The notes under the pieces are model-generated. The model saw only the letters and a program-made list of their open reading frames with translations. It did not search any database and was not told the DNA's origin. Of a stretch of 64,000 nt of DNA, positions 52,435-63,570 are shown one piece after another; the first letter of the stretch is position 1; each line of letters opens with the position of its first letter. Origin of the DNA: Cylindrodendrum hubeiense (Eukaryota > Ascomycota > Sordariomycetes > Hypocreales > Nectriaceae); assembly GCA_014621425.1 (NCBI GenBank), contig JAANBB010000020.1, positions 124,001 through 188,000 of the forward strand, given 5' to 3'. The position numbers and the translations under genes are program-made.

Positions 52435-55336
52435 ACACCCAAGCTCTAAGACTCCATTTGCAACGGTGGTTTTTGGTTCAGCTAGCTGAAACGATATTAT
52501 GATTTTAGAAAATTTGTACTTCTACCTATATTATTATACATAATTTAACCTTGTTAAATTTTGCAATTTGTGGCATTATGATTCCCACTAATCTCCGATC
52601 GGAGGACATCGTATGAAGCTCGTTGTGGCATTTGGGCGTTATTGTCGTCTTATACTCACTGTCATTGACACCTTGTCTGCCCATCAAAAGTACTCGTAAA
52701 GTAGAAGATGATAAGGTGAATCGAGAACACATGATACTCAACCTATATTATGAACTTGATAATGTTTAATCACACCTTCTCGCTATTCTTGATAATAGGG
52801 TTTCTGGAAGCATACATAACTCCAGGTCACGGATATGGCTGTTTTGCTGGTGTGAGCTGCCTGCATTGTGGACGAACACCGATTACTGGTACGGTTATCA
52901 CGTTTTGAATCTCAATAAACGGCTTGCAATCTTGTGCTGAGGTGTTTTATGTTAATAAAACAATTTGAGGATGATAATGTGAAGTGAGCTTTGAGCCTCC
53001 TCCCATGACGTGCCNNGCTNCNNCNNGNGNNNGTGTGTTAGATTGTTATCGGATTCCTGCAACTCCCTGATATATCGATATCCTAGTCTTAGTCAGAGGG
53101 GCGTGAGATTGAGAGATAAAACCCCTCACGGAAAAGAGGGGCTCGAGGCCCTCAAGGATCAATACAATCATNAGCTTTGAATCNACACTCTATTGANCAC
53201 TAAGACCANTTGATNNAATGTNCCGTANNCGATCNAANANTGTANNNNNNCGAGCAGCCGCACTCATGCGGCTGTGGGTGGAGCGTGGATGATGACAAAT
53301 CCAACTACCTGGAACAACCGGTGCTCAATATGAGGTGATTATGTAAGACCAACCTAATCTTTCCACAGAGGGATCTCCCTGTTTTGTTTCTCTTCTATCA
53401 ATATTACCCCATGCCTGAATCAAGCGTCTGCATCAGTCTTCTTTATCAACCACTTGGATCCAATGTTTCTTTACAATGACATCATCAGAGTCACGATGCG
53501 GAAAAAAACGGGTCACCATATCGCTCAGCAGAAGCAATGTCCTTTCCATTACCAGACACCCCGATGCTAGCCTCTTCAAGGTCGAATACATCTCTCGTCA
53601 TTCAATACTTCTCCCAAATCATAATTGCAGAGCGTCTAGTTAGCCTGCCTTATCTTCTTGACCATTTGGGTACTCAGCAACAAGGTTTCATGCCGAACAT
53701 ACGGCTTCTTTCAAACGGGCCATCATGCGTTTGCTATTGAGCTTTCAAAGACGGATTAAACTAAAGCCACTATAGTGTATCTTGAAATGTTGATTCACAA
53801 ACTTTGTAAACTGAACTGAATTGACAAAGGTGGGAGACCCAAAAGCGACAGCGGCAATACAGCAAAATGAAGATATAGGGTAGCAAATATGACCCTGAAT
53901 ATTGTCAGATTCATCTGGGACGTTTCCTTCCAGAGACCGCTTCCATGGGAATGACCACGTGTGAGATCAGTAGTGTACTGATCGTGTGTCGAAATTGAGC
54001 CATCCTGGAGACTGCGCTTGGAATTGCCAACTCACCTGCGAGCTGAGATGACCTTGCCGCAGCTAACCCACTCTACGTGGGTGCGTTTAGGATACCTCGA
54101 TTAGCGTAGTGCCACGATAAAGCGGCGCAAGATAGTGGAGATAACCAAGGGGCGCTCTGCGGGCATGCAAGACGTTGGGATCAATGTGTTGTTCCAATCA
54201 GTTGGATGTGTGATCTTCGACTATACTGCTCCACTTTGCCCAAGCAAGTGCATCTACAAGTCATGAACATGCAGTTACTCTGTTACCACCATCATTAGTA
54301 GCCTGATCTTAGTCTGTGAGCGGGCGGACACTACGTGCCAGCGGCGTGTGGGGGCAAGGCGCAGCAAAACGCGGGGTCCCCAGACCGGATTGTGTGCTGC
54401 AATCGGTCCGATTATTGGTCTACTCGACCCATTGTCTCCTCTAAATTAGACTTAATTGAGGATACAATTGGACAAGCTTGTTGAGATATCCGAAGTATAG
54501 GCGTAGATTTACCTCAACTAGAGGTCATGAGTCGTTAGACGACAGGGGATTCCATTTACTAGTTGGCCCATGGCTGTACGAGACTAGGAGGGGCTGGTCC
54601 CATTCTCAAGAGGCGAGACTCGCAGATGTTTACATCACGCGAGCTTTATGCTTGCTTTCACTATCCAGCAGCACCTAAGTAGTAGGCTCAGCTGCCAAGC
54701 CAGATCGCTTTAACTCAGAGCGCAATTGAAACTCCAAGAGAATAGTCGTCGACGATGAGGTCTCCTTATTTGGACACATCTGCACACGAAATATAGGCTC
54801 GAAAAGACGAGGACTGTGCCAAAAGTTAGCGGGGGCTCCGGTTAAGCGCATGCGCCCAATCGTTGGGCTTGCCATGTATTGAGCTACTGGCATACAGTAG
54901 GTATGATATTCCCTCATCGATCTCAAGACCCAGCTGAATATCCTGCATAATGCACCGATATTTCACCGTCTTGGCCTGGGACAATGCCACAAGTGGAGAC
55001 AAAACTCGCGTGACGGCTTGGGATCGAAGGCCCCGCCGCCATTTCGGGAGGTGTCGCCCGTGAGACGGTCAAAGCTGCACATCGCTCATAGGTCTCCCAG
55101 GAAACATTTACCCGTGTCTGGAAGTTTTCATGTCGATCTCTCATTCTAGAATCTAGCGACTTTTAGTTAGTCAGTTTGCGGGCCACAGATCAGGCCTTAT
55201 GGGGTATATATAGCTTATATGTCACTCTTCCGTTCTTTCGGCGGTATCCTCCTAACTCTCGAAACCCATAGGGACCACTTTGCATTCTGAACTCCTTAAT
55301 ATCCCACAGGGATCTGCGAGATTTCACCGACCGTCG
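52435..55336. other. 2.9-kb spacer with ambiguous bases
   Basis: No recognisable gene. Scattered N bases at about 53015-53033 and 53172-53250 mark uncertain sequence. Between and around them are simple G-rich and inverted stretches. Short frames at 53537, 54478, 54675 and 54923 are not protein-like. It contains the promoter of the secreted esterase at its right end, including a TATA-like gtatatatag at about 55204. Confidence 0.4.
53255..53274. other. 8-bp-stem hairpin beside N-run
   Basis: cagccgca - ctca - tgcggctg, a perfect stem with a 4-base loop, directly after the second block of ambiguous bases. Secondary structure may be why the bases were not resolved. Confidence 0.5.
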
Positions 55337-57095
55337 ATGGTCTTATCTCATCGCATCTGGCAGTGTGCCTTGGTGCAGTTTCTATTGTCATGGCTTGTCA
55401 TCGCATCACCTGCCCCAAGTCGACGCTTGCCAACTGCGAAGACTATTAACGGCACATATCAGGGCGTGTACAACCGCGCATATAATCAGGATCTATTTCT
55501 TGGAATGCCATATGCACAGCCTCCTGTGCAGGATTTGCGGTTTCGAGTCCCCCAATCCCTCAACACTACATGGAAGGGTACAAAGAATGCAACCGAGTAC
55601 TCCCGTCAGTGCATTGGATATGGAAGCGACACCTGGGTGCTCGGTAACTACGTTTCAGAAGATTGTCTCACAATTAATGTTATTCGGCCATCTGGTACAA
55701 GCAAGAACGACAACCTCCCTGTCGCATTATGGATTCATGGTGGCAGCCTCACCCAAGGAGGCGGCTCCGACCCTCGATACAATCTTTCATTCATAGTTGA
55801 CCAGTCTGTCAAGATGGGAGCCCCAATTGTAGCTGCCAGCATCAACTACCGTCTGCATGGGTGGGGGTTTCTTCACAGTGCTGACCTAGCAGCGGAGGGT
55901 TCGACCAACCTGGGATTCCGTGATCAGCGTCTAGCTCTGCACTGGGTAAAGGAGAACATCGGCAAGTTTGGAGGAGATCCCAAGCATGTTACCATTTGGG
56001 GCGAAAGTGCGGGCGCCCGCAGTGTTGGCGCTCAATTAGTTGCGTACGGTGGGCGAAACGATGGGCTCTTCCACGGGGCAGTCCTCCAAAGTGGCTCATC
56101 ACTTCCAGGAATATTGAAGCCTGCCACAGCAAGTTCATGGGCGCCATACTACAACAAACTTCTCGAAGCTACTAGCTGTGCATCCGCCAGTGACTCAGTT
56201 TCGTGTCTGAGGCGTGTGCCCACTGCGCAGCTGAGCTCTATTTTCAACAGCTCCTTCGCAGCCGCTCCTGGATGGGGTCAGGTGGTGGACAATGACTTTT
56301 TCGTTGCTCCGGGAGATTCCCTATTAAAGCAAGGCAAATTTGTCAAGGTGCCTTTGCTGCTAGGAGCCAACTTCGATGAAGGAACAGCATATGCCACGGC
56401 AGGAATTAGTACAACAGACCAGTTTCTGGCTCTTGTGAAAGGTGCAGGTGTGGATGCGTCTATTGCTGAAGAAATTGCGGAACTATACCCGGATGACCCA
56501 GCTCTCGGCATCCCAGCAACACTTGAGGGCCGCCCGGGAGGATCTATCGCTTCATTTGGACAACAATGGAAGCGAGTAGCTGCGTATCGTGGCGATGTCA
56601 CGCAACATGCAGCTCGCCGGCTCACGGCTCAGTCGTGGGCCGGGAGCAAGGTGCCAGTATGGAGTTACCACTGGAATGTTCTCGTTAACGGCATAAAGCC
56701 CGTTTATGGAGCTACTCATTTCCAAGAAGTTGTCTTTGTGTTCAACAATATCCAGGCCAATGGCTATGATACTCCAGTCTCCGCCAATCCCTTGACTGGG
56801 CAGCCAAAGTCGTTCATACATCTTGCCAATCTCATGTCGCGGATGTGGGTTAGCTTTTTCACCCAGGGCAATCCGAATTATCACCAAGGTAAGACTCGAT
56901 GTCTTTCACAATATAACCTGATCGAGTAGCTGCTAATTTATTCTTACAGCCGGATCCATCAAGTGGCCAAAGTATGAGACCAAAAACCCCAAGAATTTGG
57001 TATTTGATGTAAATACAACGAAGTTGGCATATGGGTCGCCTGACACGTACCGCGACGAAGAAATATCCTTCATTATCGACCACCTGTATTCGTAA
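55337..57095 (+). CDS. secreted type-B carboxylesterase/lipase
   Basis: Exons 55337-56888 and 56950-57095 (565 aa), with a 61-bp phase-1 intron. The start at ATG 55337 gives a good signal peptide (hydrophobic to about residue 23, then APSRR); a longer frame opens at 55280. It shows the FLGMPYAQPP block and EDCLTINVIRP of the family, HGGSL as oxyanion region, and GESAGA with nucleophile Ser224. NFDEGTAY carries the acid Glu and GATHFQEV the catalytic His. Several N-x-S/T sites fit secretion. It is likely an extracellular esterase or lipase. It converges with the NLR gene on its right. Confidence 0.94.
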
Positions 57096-57241: not shown

Positions 57242-60200
57242 TCACAGTGTATCTAGCATATTCCCATGAGTGCGTCCCTCAAGGATATCCATCAACTCTT
57301 GATCGCGTGTCTCGATCGCAAAATGGAAAGCACTCCGTCCCTCTTTATCTGGCTTATGGGCATCGCCACCCCTGTCCATCATGAGAGCAACCAACAGGTG
57401 GTGCATCTTGCGTACTGCCCGCTGGAGCGGCGTCTGACTCTCGAGAAAATCTTCCGCATTAGGGTCACACCCTCTTTCCAATAGCATGTTGGCAAACAGG
57501 GCACGATCACGGCTAGATATTGACCCTTCCGAGGCGATGATATGAAGAGCTGATAATCCATCATCATCTTGGATAGTGACGTCCATTGCAAACTCAATCA
57601 AGTATTTTGTGATGGCTTGATGTTGTTGACTTTCGTACTCCTCAACCAGCTCCGTGATCGCCCAGTGCAGTGCTGTCTTGTTGCTTTTGTCCACGACAGT
57701 TGCGTCTGCACCCATATGCAACAGAAAGCGAACGAATTGTGAATGTCCAAAACGACTAGCAAGATGCAAGGCCGTCATGCCGCCCTTGTTTCTCGCATTT
57801 ATATTTGCATGTTTTGTTAAGAGGACCCAAGCAACGGGGATGTCGTCCTCTGTTGCTGCGAGGTGCAAAGCAGTCAAACCTTTATTGGTCTTCGTGTTAA
57901 CGTCGGCACCATTCTCAAGCATAAGCCATAGAAGGCTCGCATCCTTCACGAGGCTTCTCTTCACCGCTGCATGTAATGGCGACCACCCTTCCTGGTCCTG
58001 TAGATTGATATTGATCCTTTCTGGGCCAGCTTGTGTGAGTTGCCAGACAACCTTGCCGTGGTCGTATTCCATGGCACATCTGAGTGCTGATTTGCCGTCC
58101 TCGGTAGTGACATTGAGATTTGTCTCCTTTTCAATTAGTAACCGCACTATTGATTCATGACCTTGACTGGCTGCCCAGCATAGGACGGACCAAGGGTGAC
58201 GGTTGCGTGCATGCACTTCGCAGGCCGCGCCACGTCGAATCAAAAATTTGACCATTTGACAGTGCCCTTGCAACGCTGCGTCTCGCACCGCGGCCCAGCC
58301 CTGGTCCTGATCTCGAATATCCAAATTGGCTTCACGATCCACGAGAAGTTGGACTATCGCTTCGTGTCCTTTGTGTGCTGCAATTCTAAGAGGCGTCCAG
58401 TTCTTGGAGTCCAGGATGTTCAGGTGAATGGATTTCGACTCAAGGAGGATCTTCACCAAGTGAATTTTCTCGCGTGCCACCGCCATATGCAAAGCGGTTT
58501 TTCCATTTTTGTCCGTTTCATTGATGTCTGCGCCACGTTGAATCAGGGCATACAGAATATCGGTGCACCCGTATTGAATGGCCCAATGCATGGCAGTCTC
58601 GCCATATTGTGTTTTTGCGTCGAGGTTGATAGATTTCGATAAAAGAATGTTCACAGCTGATGGAGAATCCAGATACGTTGCTAGATGGAGGCCAGAAACG
58701 AGCTTCTCGAGTGAGATCAGGCAGCCGCTCATAGCCTGCACGGCAGATGAAACATTTTCCATGCTTTGAAGGAATCTAAGAGTGTGATGATTGAGATCGC
58801 GAGTAGGCGATTTCGCAAGATGAATGTGCCAGTTGTCAGCCGCATAGTTGAGAAAGGGATACGTCTCCATACGATGGGACACTTCCTCTGCCGGCAGAGG
58901 TTTGCCGAATTCCGGGAGGGAAAGATAAGCTATGCATTTCTCCGCGAGATTGAACGGCACTTGGGGCAAGAATTCATCCTCGATAATGCGGTCTTGGAAG
59001 TATTGTTGAGCGGTATGGTGTACTAATCTCACGACCGAACTCTCAGGGTCGACGATGACAATGCCGGCACAGGTAGATATTAAGTGGGCCTCGACCTGCA
59101 AATTTTGCTTGATATCTTCCAAGTTTCTGATTTCATTGCGTGTCGCCAAAGCATGAGAGAGTTCGCTAACTGTTAGAGGTCTTGAGGCATATAATATGCA
59201 AGATAAAACGTCAAAGGCGAGTGTCCTTTTAGCCACGTCCTGGGCTTCAATTCGGACAAGCGCCTGTTCGTATATCTTATCAGTGCTTTTCGGTAGGTGC
59301 CTCAATCTGTGTTGTAGACCTCTCATGTTCATTGCTTGAACCAGGTCATCCATATGGAGCTGTGCAAGAAGGAACCTGTCATAGAACACTATGTTAGCCG
59401 CCGCTTATTGACATTGTATCTTGATACTCACATCCCATCCGAATTTTTAATGACAGTGTCAACAATGCTGGAAGAGGCTTTCTGATCCATTTCAACCACG
59501 CTCTTGAACAATGAAGAAGAGTTGATCCGGCTGAGGATATAGCGTTTAAGGTCGTCGTTTCGAGCTGAAATATGCAGCTTCGCACCCGCTTTCATCTCAT
59601 TTTCATCAATTAAGTCAGTTCGGGCGAAGAACAAAGCATTGACAGCTGGCGGAAATCCACGGATTATCTTCAAAACTTCATCCCTAGCGTTGAACGGGTC
59701 ATTCGGGCACTCATCCAAAGCGTCGATGACAATGAAGACCTTCTTGAATTTCCCAAACTCTTGTTTGAGTAGCTCTAAGAAATCCCCTGACTCAGGCATC
59801 GATTTATGAATGATGTACTCTTTGTAAATGTCCCTAACCTTGGCGGGGACATCTTCGTGTTGCGCCAATATTGCCTGCTGCAGCATATTTGCCAACAGTC
59901 TGGTAATAAAGGTAGCCGTGCGTTGATCTTCGGCTTCCTGATAGTCGAAATAGACATAAATGCATAAGAAATCTCTAGGATTGGTGATGCATACTTGTCG
60001 GAGGTGTTCAATCACGATTGACCTGGGAGCTATTAATATCGGAGAAAATGGTTGAGGGCGGGAAGAAGCATCGTTCTATATGAAAACGAGCAACGTACGC
60101 GAGAATGGTCCTGCCGGCGCCAGCTACGTCTTCATGAGCATCTTCTAAATTCCTTTTATAATTACAATACTCACGTATTCCATGACACCATAGTATAGCG

Positions 60201-60759
60201 TTCGATCCCCCTTTCCACTCAACGAATTCATCTCTGTTCAAGATCCATTCCCCAGTACCAGGACTTTTGCGTGCTACCTCAGCGTACTGTTTGTGTTTCC
60301 TAAAAAATGGAAGCAATGAAAAGCCATTCATCCAATCAATAATTTCGGACTTTTCATTATCTGCGAGGGTCAACACGACGATCCGTTACAAACATGAGTT
60401 AATAACACACCAACAGATTTGACCCCTGCATTGCATAGTTAGCTATCACCATATGTCCTGTGTTTCTCGACAGCATTTGTCACCAAATGCATTTATTCTG
60501 CAAGGTGATGCCCCGCAGCATACAGACTAGAGAAGCACAATGACTTACCGTAGTTAATCTCACCGACGGTGACTTTATTCCCGATGACTGACTTATGAGC
60601 GTCCCGAACGTCAACCTGGCCACCACTTGTGGCCCACGGGCTCAAAGGCGAGATCTACTGTGGGATTAAGTTCCAGACTTCTTTGAGACATATCTCTTGT
60701 CGCAGCAATGGGAAATCAATTCATCATACCGGTAGAGCCTTGGCGGCGTTCTCATCCAT
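57242..60759 (-). CDS. NLR-type STAND protein: amyloid-like motif, NACHT, ankyrin repeats
   Basis: Seven exons: 60759-60730, 60654-60549, 60425-60411 (15-nt microexon), 60360-60175, 60123-60099, 60022-59432 and 59375-57242 (1028 aa). All junctions are phase-consistent. The N-terminus carries a short beta-prone motif, HKSVIGNKVTVGEINY (residues 30-45), like fungal amyloid-signalling motifs. A linker with WMNGF and GTGEWIL precedes the NACHT domain. Walker A is GIPGAGRT (111-118), with Arg instead of Lys. Walker B is FIVIDALDE at about 217-225. GMFLLAQLHMDDL follows as usual. The C-terminal half has a dozen or so ankyrin repeats (for example NGKTALHMAVAREK and GLTALHLAATEDD). It should act as a ligand sensor that oligomerises and templates a partner. 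The lipase gene lies 513 bp upstream in the same direction. Confidence 0.88.
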
Positions 60760-61272
60760 TGTGAGAGCTAGGTCGGTAGCAAGTGTATGTATATGCGTGC
60801 AGCGCAAGATAGATGTTTGAGGCTTCCGATGTTTACATTTATGTGTTGTGAGTACATTTTAATGGTAATACTTGTGAACAGATGAGGAGGGGGGCACGTT
60901 ACAGCAGCACAATTCTTGCACTTGCGATTGGCGAACCATAACGACGAAAAGCGGAACGGACGCCTTAAATCACAACACAGACGGGTCTCGTAGCGTGATC
61001 TGATTTTGAAAATTTTACAATGGATGGTAGTGGCTCGTCATCCGACGTGCATGCACCACGCCACTCAAGAATTCGCACTTTGCCAGGCTCCCACCTCAAA
61101 GGTTCGCGAGTGGTCCGCTTAAGACATTCACATAGCGTCATAACGCATCATAGTCTAACGCCACATACAGCTGGAGTGTGATTTACGCTTCTGTCTCTGA
61201 TTCGGTGGCCACATGGTACCGCAGTCAAATCGGGTTTCAATCAGTTCATTCTCAAGGCATTCCAGAAAAGCT
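60760..61272. promoter_or_regulatory. NLR promoter / lipase 3' flank
   Basis: 513-bp spacer between two co-oriented genes. The minus-strand frame at 61155-61340 overlaps the lipase end and is unsupported. Confidence 0.45.
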
Positions 61273-62616
61273 CTAACTAAAGACAAGATCCCCATGAATA
61301 ACCTGGCATCCATTAACAATGCTGGAATGTAAGACATCACCCTGTATTATTATGATGCCTGACTCTTCCATCTTTGTTATCGGTTCCGAGGGACCGCCTC
61401 GCAACGGGAACCGGGACTCTGGATTGTTGCTTATCAAGCAATCATGGGAGAGGATATCGTTTACCCATCTCATAATCTCTCCAACAATGCTAATGAAGCC
61501 CGGATCATTCTCGCTAGCAAACTTTACCATATCTTTATGATGGCTGTGGATTCCAATAGATGGGTATGAAGGTAGAATAGCCGAGGACTTCGGGACAATC
61601 TATGGCCTTGTCAGAGATGTCAAAATACGTTGATGTATATAATTGTGAGTAAAACATAGGGAAGATCGGATATGGCACGATAGAGATGGGAAAGTGAATG
61701 AAATTGATATTTCAAGTACCTCTCCAAAACGAGGTGTGGGAAGTTCCTCATAAAAACAAGTTATCGATATTTTGCGGTGGCCGTCGCTTAGTTGAGACCT
61801 GAGCAACGAATGAAAGTCGTTTCGAATTCGAGCCAATAATTCCGAGTCCCTTCGGAGCACCTGAAGAATTCTAGGATTGGCTTGCCGAACATGAGATGTC
61901 CATCGCATCAATCGATGCACAGCATCCCCCAAGCCGACCCCAGTGTGAGGCGTCCCAATAAAAGCAATTGCCGATGTGCAACGGAGAATACTCCTGAGAT
62001 GATCTTCAGCACTCGTTCTCGACATCACTAGGGCCTATATGTCAAATTCGTAAATATGTAATCAACTTAAAAAGTTTGGTCAGTTGAAGATTTAGGGCCT
62101 CCTACCTCTTGACAAACGAGCCCACCAAGACTGTGGGCTACGAAGATGATGGGACGATTGACCTGATAAGTTTTAGCACAACACACCGTAGTAACCGTTA
62201 CAACTCCACTTGCACTCTTGTCGGTCCCTCTGTGAGAAGCGAGGGCCGAGAGCAAGCTCTTGGCGTGCTCCCCAATTCCATTGTTCGATACCGGTGAGTC
62301 GGATTTAAGCACGTGCGCGTCGTATCCATATGCCATCATCCGAGCCTCAGGCAGTTTGGGAGCCAATAGAGCTTCTGGCCATAGCCCGTTGCCATCTTTG
62401 AGCGACCATGTACGGTCGCGATGGCCCGACAAACCATGAAGAAATATGACGCTAGAGAATAGACGATGATCAGCGACGACTTGAGAATGTGGTCTTGGCA
62501 TTAACCTACTCAACGATGGGACTGGCAGGCTCGGACCAAGTTACTAGACCATATTTATCAGAGTCGGCGACGATGCCGCCCGACGGCCTTGCGGTTTCAG
62601 TCCGAAATAGCTTCAT
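61273..62616 (-). CDS. SesB-like lipase/esterase with C-terminal amyloid-like motif
   Basis: Exons 62616-62510, 62451-62106, 62034-61720 and 61599-61273 (364 aa), all phase-consistent. This is the alpha/beta hydrolase of the type found in fungal cell-death STAND systems. It shows VIFLHGLSGHRDRTW, then VAHSLGG with nucleophile Ser143, and a later AFIGTPHTG block. The enzyme ends in a Ser/Pro/Gly linker and a beta-prone tail, HSSIVNGCQVIHGDLVF (about 347-363), similar to the motif near the N-terminus of the adjacent NLR. An upstream half-copy, GIIIIQGDV, precedes it. This matches an effector activated by a partner NLR through amyloid templating (inference). The 120-bp third intron is longer than usual. 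An extra segment just before the NRPIIF strand (about 62155-62200) could be a retained in-frame intron. Confidence 0.82.
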
Positions 62617-63163
62617 GTTATTGACCCTGAGTCGAGTTCCAAGGGGCAAAGAAAAAAGTGAAAAGATAGGGAGGATGGAAAGACTGTTGTCCGTAAAGAT
62701 ATTCTGTGACGGCGTCGAGCTGGTTGTGCTTTGGGCAGATTTTAACCCCGCCTTGGGCGCCCGACTCACTCCCGAATGTCTCGCCACATAGTGTTTGTGA
62801 TACGAGGCTGAGCCCGTGAGATCAGACAATGCCGCGGTGAAATCAAATGGAATTACGACAGCGACGGCGGGCAGAATCGAGCGTTTGAAATATAAAATAT
62901 AAACCGGAGACGTTCATTTCAATTGAGGATGGAGATGGTAATAGCTATCTAGCCAATAACGGCACCGTTCAATTGCAACCCTGCCCCGTCATATCAGCTC
63001 CAGGGAATCAGCTGAAATCTTGACACCAACCAGTGACTTATAGGTTGTACTGGCTACACGCACACCGGACCCTTTGTTCTGAGTTAAACCGGGACGGTGA
63101 GGTTTTGAGGGATTGTCTGGCTGTATAAGATGAGCTTGACTCGGGCAAAGCACGGGGATGATA
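62617..63163. other. promoter of the lipase gene
   Basis: The lipase frame stays open upstream of ATG 62616 to a TTG at 62829, but that part is low in protein-like character and includes the pyrimidine-rich leader. No other gene is seen. Confidence 0.4.
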
Positions 63164-63570
63164 TTAAATTACTTGCTCGAAGCTCGAGGGAATGGGTCCT
63201 TCTACGAGATTGTCAGCCATGGAGGGATCCCATCTGTAGTCGTTGGGATCTTAGCATACCGATTTTGATGACACCGCTGATAATGATATCCCTAGCTACG
63301 ACCGATTGAATAACCTTGCCCCCGATCTCCACGAGGCTTTGCTTCAAGTCTTGCATATCAGCCGAGGTCCCCACATTCTACCAGAAGACACGAGTTAGCA
63401 TATCGCTCCGCTCGGTCGCTTTGTTGAGGCTGCAGGGCATGTGCCTTTTTGACCGATTCTGAGGCTTGCTGGTTGCCTCCTCGGCCTAATTTTCTTCCCT
63501 GATCTTCTTTGCCTTGCACCGTCTGACTGGCGCTGCCAAAATTGTCACTGAGTGTTCGAATCGGAGCCAT
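63164..63570 (-). CDS. small hypothetical protein, possible amyloid-like C-terminus
   Basis: Proposed exons 63570-63454, 63377-63260 and 63201-63164 (90 aa). All junctions keep phase. Intron 1 ends in a good branch/acceptor (gctaac...ggtag) but has a weak GTCAAA donor, and intron 2 starts GTATGC. The N-terminal half is polar and disordered, with QQASES at its end. It is followed by SADMQDLKQSL and a strongly beta-prone stretch, SVVARDIIISGVIKI (64-78). That stretch has spacing similar to the motifs of the lipase and NLR downstream on the same strand. Without splicing the first exon would end after about 70 codons. No known family. Both gene model and function are tentative. Confidence 0.4.

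Follow-up and report, generated by a model that had tools for sequence, protein, structure and literature searches.

The DNA examined here is a 64,000-nucleotide window of the 47.5 Mb genome of Cylindrodendrum hubeiense (contig JAANBB010000020.1, C113 below, bases 124001-188000), and all positions are counted within this window. Two adjacent genes on its minus strand, encoding a SesB-type lipase and a NOD-like receptor (NLR) with NACHT and ankyrin regions, had been proposed in an original prediction to form an amyloid-signalling pair, with one motif shared by the C-terminus of the lipase and the N-terminus of the NLR. The lipase gene (61273-62616; exons 62616-62510, 62451-62106, 62034-61720 and 61599-61273) was modelled to encode 364 amino acids and the NLR gene (57242-60759; exons 60759-60730, 60654-60549, 60360-60175, 60123-60099, 60022-59432 and 59375-57242) 1023 amino acids, both with GT-AG introns and zero internal stops. 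The co-orientation of the two genes was confirmed, as was the spacing of 513 bp that separates the stop codon of the lipase from the ATG of the NLR. A third element, a small open reading frame (ORF) of 90 amino acids as modelled, lies upstream on the same strand (63164-63570; exons 63570-63454, 63377-63260 and 63201-63164, the last one putative), and its ATG, in an ACCATGG context, is located 645 bp from the lipase start. The coordinates of the original prediction take in this ORF, which had gone unreported. Their outer limit, 63570, does not mark the start of the lipase: the ATG at that position belongs to the separate small ORF, and the lipase starts at 62616, as in its closest homolog P0001 according to comparison by eye (homologous proteins are given by P numbers).

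The lipase matches DUF676 with 22.4 bits (cut-off 20.3) and Abhydrolase_6 with 25 bits, which is below the cut-off of 26.3 for that family. It has 183 homologs at E≤1e-3, of which 120 were listed, and the homolog counts given below rest on those 120. The putative catalytic residues Ser143 and His277 are identical in all 24 aligned sequences, and SesB-related names are carried by the closest homolog(s) and by some further ones among those listed. Based on domain, serine and histidine, the protein has the predicted features of the SesB-like α/β-hydrolase effectors. The deposited model of the Ilyonectria lipase P0001 looks faulty, as it ends in a different reading and not in the tail described next.

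The lipase terminates in HSSIVNGCQVIHGDLVF, followed by one serine and the stop codon. The tail shares its exon with the conserved final part of the catalytic domain, and its reading is therefore independent of splicing. Its 28-residue motif, GIIIIQGDVLHSSIVNGCQVIHGDLVFS (61276-61359, minus strand), is common to a family of tails with the shared pattern GGITIxGxVxxSxVVNGxQTIxGxLxF, which was found in 32 of the 120 listed homologs in addition to the window lipase. Tails were recognised with a profile of 19 tails including that of the window; 14 of the 32 were outside the profile, though they had been noticed earlier by eye, and two further listed proteins match the profile at chance level. In 31 of the 32 tail-bearing homologs the motif ends 0-6 residues from the C-terminus, the remaining one, P0018, being partial. 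Pairwise, the 24 aligned sequences are on average 57% identical in the domain and 50% in the tail, but 10% in the linker between the two, which is 20-74 amino acids long, and comparison of the window tail with six family tails gave P 3e-4, the floor of the test. Conservation of the lipase tail thus exceeds chance, as judged from these alignments. The motif alternates hydrophobic residues and glycine and stands at the extreme C-terminus behind a variable linker, the arrangement expected for the effector side of an amyloid-signalling system. Sigma tails (PF17106) occupy the same place on the SesB homologs P0066, P0068, P0073, P0076 and P0097, and a lipase of the C. hubeiense genome bears a PP motif there.

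The tail appears to be an undescribed motif. No Pfam match above cut-off was obtained for it, either in full-length or in tail-only scans; when 19 tails were scanned alone, a single entry, ENOD40 at E 4, appeared for one tail, and the tail of P0063 is overlapped by a sub-threshold Calici_MSP match (12.4 of 25 bits, E 0.16). The published patterns of HRAM, PP, sigma, PUASM and GDQN fitted none of 31 tails; the PP and sigma sequences of the same genome match their own patterns, and the HRAM, PUASM and GDQN patterns were applied without positive control. The suggestion of the original prediction that the motif might represent a new family is borne out in this respect. In the literature search, no publication's listing names such a motif on a lipase. 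No second copy of the tail was found in the genome by profile search, in which just the first-look candidates were scored (one in one search). The conserved lipase tail is regarded as the new and solid part of the present finding. A second recurrent SesB-lipase tail of different appearance, approximately GGNxISGxIxGNxGxIxQGxFxG, was seen by eye in P0037, P0044, P0045, P0046, P0047, P0050 and P0051.

The NLR contains an NPHP3_N match of 107 bits at residues 80-236, and ankyrin repeats; the NACHT model reaches 17.4 bits, under its cut-off of 26.7. No family has its best stretch within the first 79 residues at E≤10, a scan of the first 57 residues alone returned zero families, and about 45 residues precede the NACHT linker. 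With less than 150 residues before the nucleoside triphosphatase (NTPase) region, with repeats and with no effector domain found, the protein fits, by these predictions, the class of fungal NLRs with a short, effector-less N-terminus. DUF676, the homolog names, NPHP3_N and the ankyrin matches together uphold the earlier assignment of the pair as a SesB-like lipase and a NACHT-ankyrin NLR lacking an effector domain. The N-terminal segment proposed as the counterpart of the lipase tail, HKSVIGNKVTVGEINY (residues 30-45; 60550-60597, minus strand), was read from the spliced model, in which it is present as described, as is the lipase end peptide. It lies in a single exon flanked by two introns, with coding-like codon usage. 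The gene corresponds to G7Z17_g2155 (P0121), and the deposited model contains the exon of this segment; the deposited model also looks faulty, since the P-loop region is skipped.

Paralogs of the NLR exist in the genome, and the motif exon matches itself only (just the one first-look candidate was scored). A maximum-likelihood tree with midpoint root was built from 40 STAND regions, hand-picked from the best matches to include P0122, P0123, P0129 and P0141. In this tree, P0141 from Phialemonium atrogriseum is the sister of the window NLR with support of 95/76, below the tool's mark of 95/80, and both fall in a six-sequence clade (100/98) together with P0122, P0123, P0124 and P0129. The N-terminus before the NTPase is likewise short in P0122, P0123 and P0129, and the domain scan finds none in the N-termini of P0122 and P0129. 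Residues 16-50 of the window NLR resemble P0123 (P 0.0014-0.0024) and P0129 (P 0.002-0.005), and the likeness of the N-terminal segment to P0122 is weaker (P 0.07-0.08). P0141 is annotated without an N-terminus. The tail-bearing lipase P0005 also comes from Phialemonium atrogriseum, and P0005 and P0141 seem to lie on one contig, judging from the identical longest contig listed for both (2,659,279 bp). No second NLR was recognised by eye among ORFs of at least 120 amino acids over 20 kb past the lipase, and the listing for the contig has just one further NLR match, at a distance of about 66 kb.

The lipase-tail motif likely recurs in the small upstream ORF, at VEIGGKVIQSVVARDIIISGVIKI (63261-63332, minus strand), which fits the residue sets of the lipase tails and ends 12 residues before the end of the modelled protein. 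When all six frames of the window (1621 fragments) were scanned with the P0005 tail, the lipase tail scored 54, the small ORF (63377-63216) 49 and the next fragment 36; with the mean over 20 tails the small ORF was third, behind a 557-residue frame, at a shuffle P of 0.0027. An earlier 12-position pattern had been written after the small ORF was seen, and the residue sets were for that reason then drawn from the other 30 lipase tails, using 15 low-diversity columns, in each of which no more than 4 different residues occur, a limit of the author's choice. In this position test the lipase scored 15/15 and the small ORF 14/14, with a spacing shorter by one residue that P0005 shares. The next-best score, 11, was reached at two places in the window, one of them a shifted reading of the lipase, and once in 446,549 background residues. 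As background served 256 kb from this genome, made up of loci that surround matches to NLRs and lipases; these loci partly overlap, so that part was counted twice. Compared with the P0005 tail, the best background fragments (10.6 bits, Smith-Waterman score 43) approach the small ORF (11.7 bits, 49), and partial matches were seen. The exon with the small-ORF motif also resembles exon 2 of the NLR weakly (P 0.014-0.085), and the modelled intron phases are alike (0 and 1).

That the small ORF is a relic, of a lost effector or of the 5' end of a receptor, or else a chance match is a substantial possibility, albeit one that we place short of even, and it is compatible with every other reading of the locus. 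The donor of its first intron is weak (GTCAAA), it has no Pfam match, no homolog was found in a search of its own genome and 350 proteins, and the only match elsewhere in the genome was at E 1.1. Exons 1 and 2 have codon scores of 0.186 and 0.237, to be compared with a mean of 0.178 for coding sequence and a 95th percentile of 0.115 for out-of-frame readings. An antisense frame of exon 2, however, reaches 0.266, above the frame that is read, and codon support for the ORF is thus weak; the real last exon of the lipase scores just 0.071. No effector domain was recognised upstream in minus-strand frames of at least 40 amino acids, which were inspected by eye without library search. A profile hidden Markov model (HMM) of 19 tails matches the ORF at E 1.1, which would suit a relic or a coincidence, but the model of 31 tails gives E 0.044 over the whole window. 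All 14 positions are fitted with sets taken from lipases only, against a background maximum of 11, and the ORF shares strand and vicinity with the lipase, all of which argues against a relic or a chance match.

The lipase tail might alternatively be a conserved docking or regulatory peptide of non-amyloid nature, for example a β-strand that would pair with a partner or with the lipase, the NLR being an incidental neighbour. Linear motifs can be short and conserved in the same way, and the tail is not detectably present on the NLR. On the other hand, the alternation of hydrophobic residues and glycine, the C-terminal place and the variable linker are typical of amyloid-signalling tails, and related lipases bear sigma or PP tails at the corresponding position. 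The neighbouring NLR lacks a recognised effector domain, and its sister P0141 has the same longest contig listed as the tail-bearing P0005. This alternative as a whole is considered rather unlikely.

The motif on the NLR side was assessed by several comparisons, in which the alignment of the NLR segment with the lipase tail was tried as a shared motif by HMM, position-specific scoring matrix (PSSM), Smith-Waterman alignment, ranking, NLR-side profile and position counting, and was unsupported overall. The profile searches that had been recommended recognised the tail family among lipase C-termini, but the tail HMM did not list the window NLR among 121 NLR N-termini even at E 10. A gapped tail profile gave P 0.27 on its N-terminus, and 23 of 229 other NLR N-termini scored at least as high; by z-score it ranks 14th of 230. 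The NLR segment against the tail-family mean gave P 0.10, and Smith-Waterman alignment of the lipase tail with the segment gave P 0.074 and 0.131 when gaps were dear and 0.024 and 0.072 when they were cheap. In the reverse direction, an NLR-side profile against the window tail yielded P 0.43, and the NLR alone 0.74. A profile of four NLR N-termini scored the family tails at a mean z of 1.40 (n=32) and other lipase ends at 0.21 (n=88), whereas with the window NLR alone the values were 0.24 and 0.40.

Two results were suggestive. A 13-residue PSSM reached a shuffle P of 0.036 on the NLR, the expected value by background windows being 0.018; an equally high score was found for 5 of 119 other NLRs, or for 12 of 119 over their first 150 residues. 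The P0005 tail against the NLR segment gave P 0.010-0.016 and placed the NLR exon 6th of the 1621 window fragments; in the background, the score of the segment is matched by 9 of the 2324 fragments that are 40-70 amino acids long, and the N-terminal segments of P0122 and P0123 align to the P0005 tail free of gaps. For comparison, two PP effectors of the genome align at a score of 86 with P≤5e-5 both ways, this control being an effector-effector pair and not an NLR-effector pair. Most tests for the same motif on the NLR N-terminus and the effector C-terminus thus remained at chance level. The motif predicted at the C-terminus of the enzyme was confirmed, the one at the N-terminus of the NLR was not, and a common NLR-lipase motif is not supported by these comparisons, a distant relation being possible. 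That the two termini are copies of one amyloid motif, through which the NLR would template the lipase directly, accordingly appears improbable in spite of a layout (position, orientation and distance) like that of HET-S/NWD2 and SesB clusters and of the PSSM and P0005 results, for the family profiles, the window pair itself (P 0.02-0.13 and 0.43-0.74), the ranking among other N-termini, the position counts, the absence of the NLR from the tail-HMM listing and the PP control all speak otherwise.

Taken together, the locus is interpreted, with somewhat more confidence than doubt, as a split NLR-effector cluster like those that serve regulated cell death or non-self recognition in fungi, with a new motif on the effector side and possibly a third, motif-only protein. 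This interpretation was chosen because the tail is a separately conserved C-terminal module where relatives carry sigma or PP motifs, because the N-terminus of the NLR is short and gave no match to an effector domain, because its sister P0141 seems to share a contig with the tail-bearing P0005, because the small ORF fits the motif and no other NLR was recognised in the 20 kb past the lipase, and because PP-, sigma- and HET-s-type motifs occur elsewhere in the genome. Of the amyloid-signalling pair originally proposed, the lipase-NLR pairing with a conserved tail is retained and the shared motif on the NLR is regarded as unproven. The lipase tail would act as a conformational switch (a β-arch or an amyloid) by which the lipase could be nucleated and activated, a role also assumed for the PP and sigma motifs of other SesB lipases. 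Oligomerisation of the NLR would start this nucleation. Either the NLR copy of the motif would have diverged past recognition, or the signal would pass via the small protein that bears the motif, or via some other partner. That the lipase is activated by amyloid templating we infer from its relatives.

Several points weigh against the split-cluster interpretation. By position counting, the NLR fits only 5 positions of the 12-position pattern and 6 of the 15 low-diversity columns. The small-ORF motif is identical to the tail of the neighbouring lipase at 7 of 24 residues and ranks 25th of 31 by score, and lipases of other species are as close to it as the neighbour is. None of the 120 listed lipases is named to the species of P0122, P0123 or P0129, several of them having no species name. 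Cognate extensions were reported, in the parts of the publication covered, to be more alike inside a cluster (PMC3321046), and a scan of the C-termini of this hydrolase class for NLR-paired motifs gave, as far as the covered parts of that publication describe it, other families only (PMC9815663).

A bolder version holds that the tail founds a new amyloid-signalling family and that its partner in the cluster is the tiny motif-only protein and not the NLR, the small protein relaying the signal of the NLR or restraining the lipase. We consider this doubtful; a link of the small ORF to both the NLR and the lipase would be in line with its weak likeness to exon 2 of the NLR and the equal intron phases. 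A motif-only protein of this sort is comparable to adaptors and decoys such as ASC and the PYD-only proteins, and mammalian inflammasome systems have adaptor-, seed- and decoy-type players. In the parts of the literature covered, the motif families named for fungal amyloid signalling are few: HRAM, PP, sigma, PUASM and GDQN. If the split-cluster interpretation is true, a further conserved tail on a lipase effector, without detectable counterpart on the NLR beside it, would show that searches requiring both partners to carry one motif miss part of the fungal repertoire. A gene for a motif-only protein would bring in a third kind of player (adaptor, seed or decoy), one not met for fungi in those parts of the literature.

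Outside the cluster, a carboxylesterase-like gene at 55256-57095 on the plus strand, read by eye, is convergent with the NLR. Motifs of the PP, sigma and HET-s types are held by the same genome at other loci. A divergent PP pair lies at about 21490-23664 of C325, consisting of a HeLo-like gene on the minus strand and a lipase on the plus strand with NNxGFQLGxNTGT near their C-termini, the two motifs being about 2 kb apart. A sigma-tailed SesA-like protein is encoded at C1:440624-440746, and a match to NLRs lies about 2 kb from it. HET-s prion-domain (PF11558) matches above cut-off occur at C667:386812-387006 and C490:47284-47478, one of them with an in-frame stop.

Among the known systems, HET-S/NWD2 (HRAM) is similar in that an effector adjoins an NLR and the motif is expected at the C-terminus of the effector, but the effector here is a lipase and not a HeLo protein. 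HRAM was defined, in the sections of the source covered, as a 21-residue motif with hydrophobic residues at positions 5, 8, 10, 16 and 18 and glycine at 19, usually present twice on the effector (PMC4518210). This pattern, applied without positive control, is absent from the lipase tail, the NLR, the small ORF and the 31 tails, and PF11558 and PF17108 are not among the matches, in agreement with the earlier view that the motif does not clearly belong to the HET-s class. PUASM and GDQN are recent fungal amyloid-signalling families obtained from terminal-motif scans. Their patterns, given as FxGxGxQxxGxGxF and GxGDQN in the covered parts of the sources, were reported there on effectors with PNP_UDP and on a SesA-domain protein, respectively (PMC9815663, PMC12261475). 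They differ from the present case in that neither pattern occurs in any of the 31 tails (no positive control) and that their effectors are not lipases.

Likeness is also found to the PP module (HELLP/SBP lipase/PNT1), which comprises up to three genes and in which a free SesB-type lipase with a C-terminal motif adjoins an effector-less NLR. The window tail differs from it in lacking the core NxGxQxGxN (0 of 31 tails; both PP controls match) and a PF17046 match, and the motif here is not demonstrably on the NLR. Nectria haematococca is, like C. hubeiense, a member of the Nectriaceae. The sesA/sesB/het-eN locus of that species, the sigma system, resembles the present one in having a SesB lipase, a NACHT-ankyrin NLR and three genes, as far as the covered parts of its description go (PMC3321046). 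Unlike that locus, the elements GxGxQF and GGTQN are found in none of the 31 tails (the sigma control matches), PF17106 gives no match, and the third gene encodes about 90 amino acids without a Pfam domain and is not SesA. Free SesB lipases with PP or sigma tails were described beside NLRs in the covered parts of the same work (PMC3321046), and the lipase and NLR of the window have this arrangement with a different tail.

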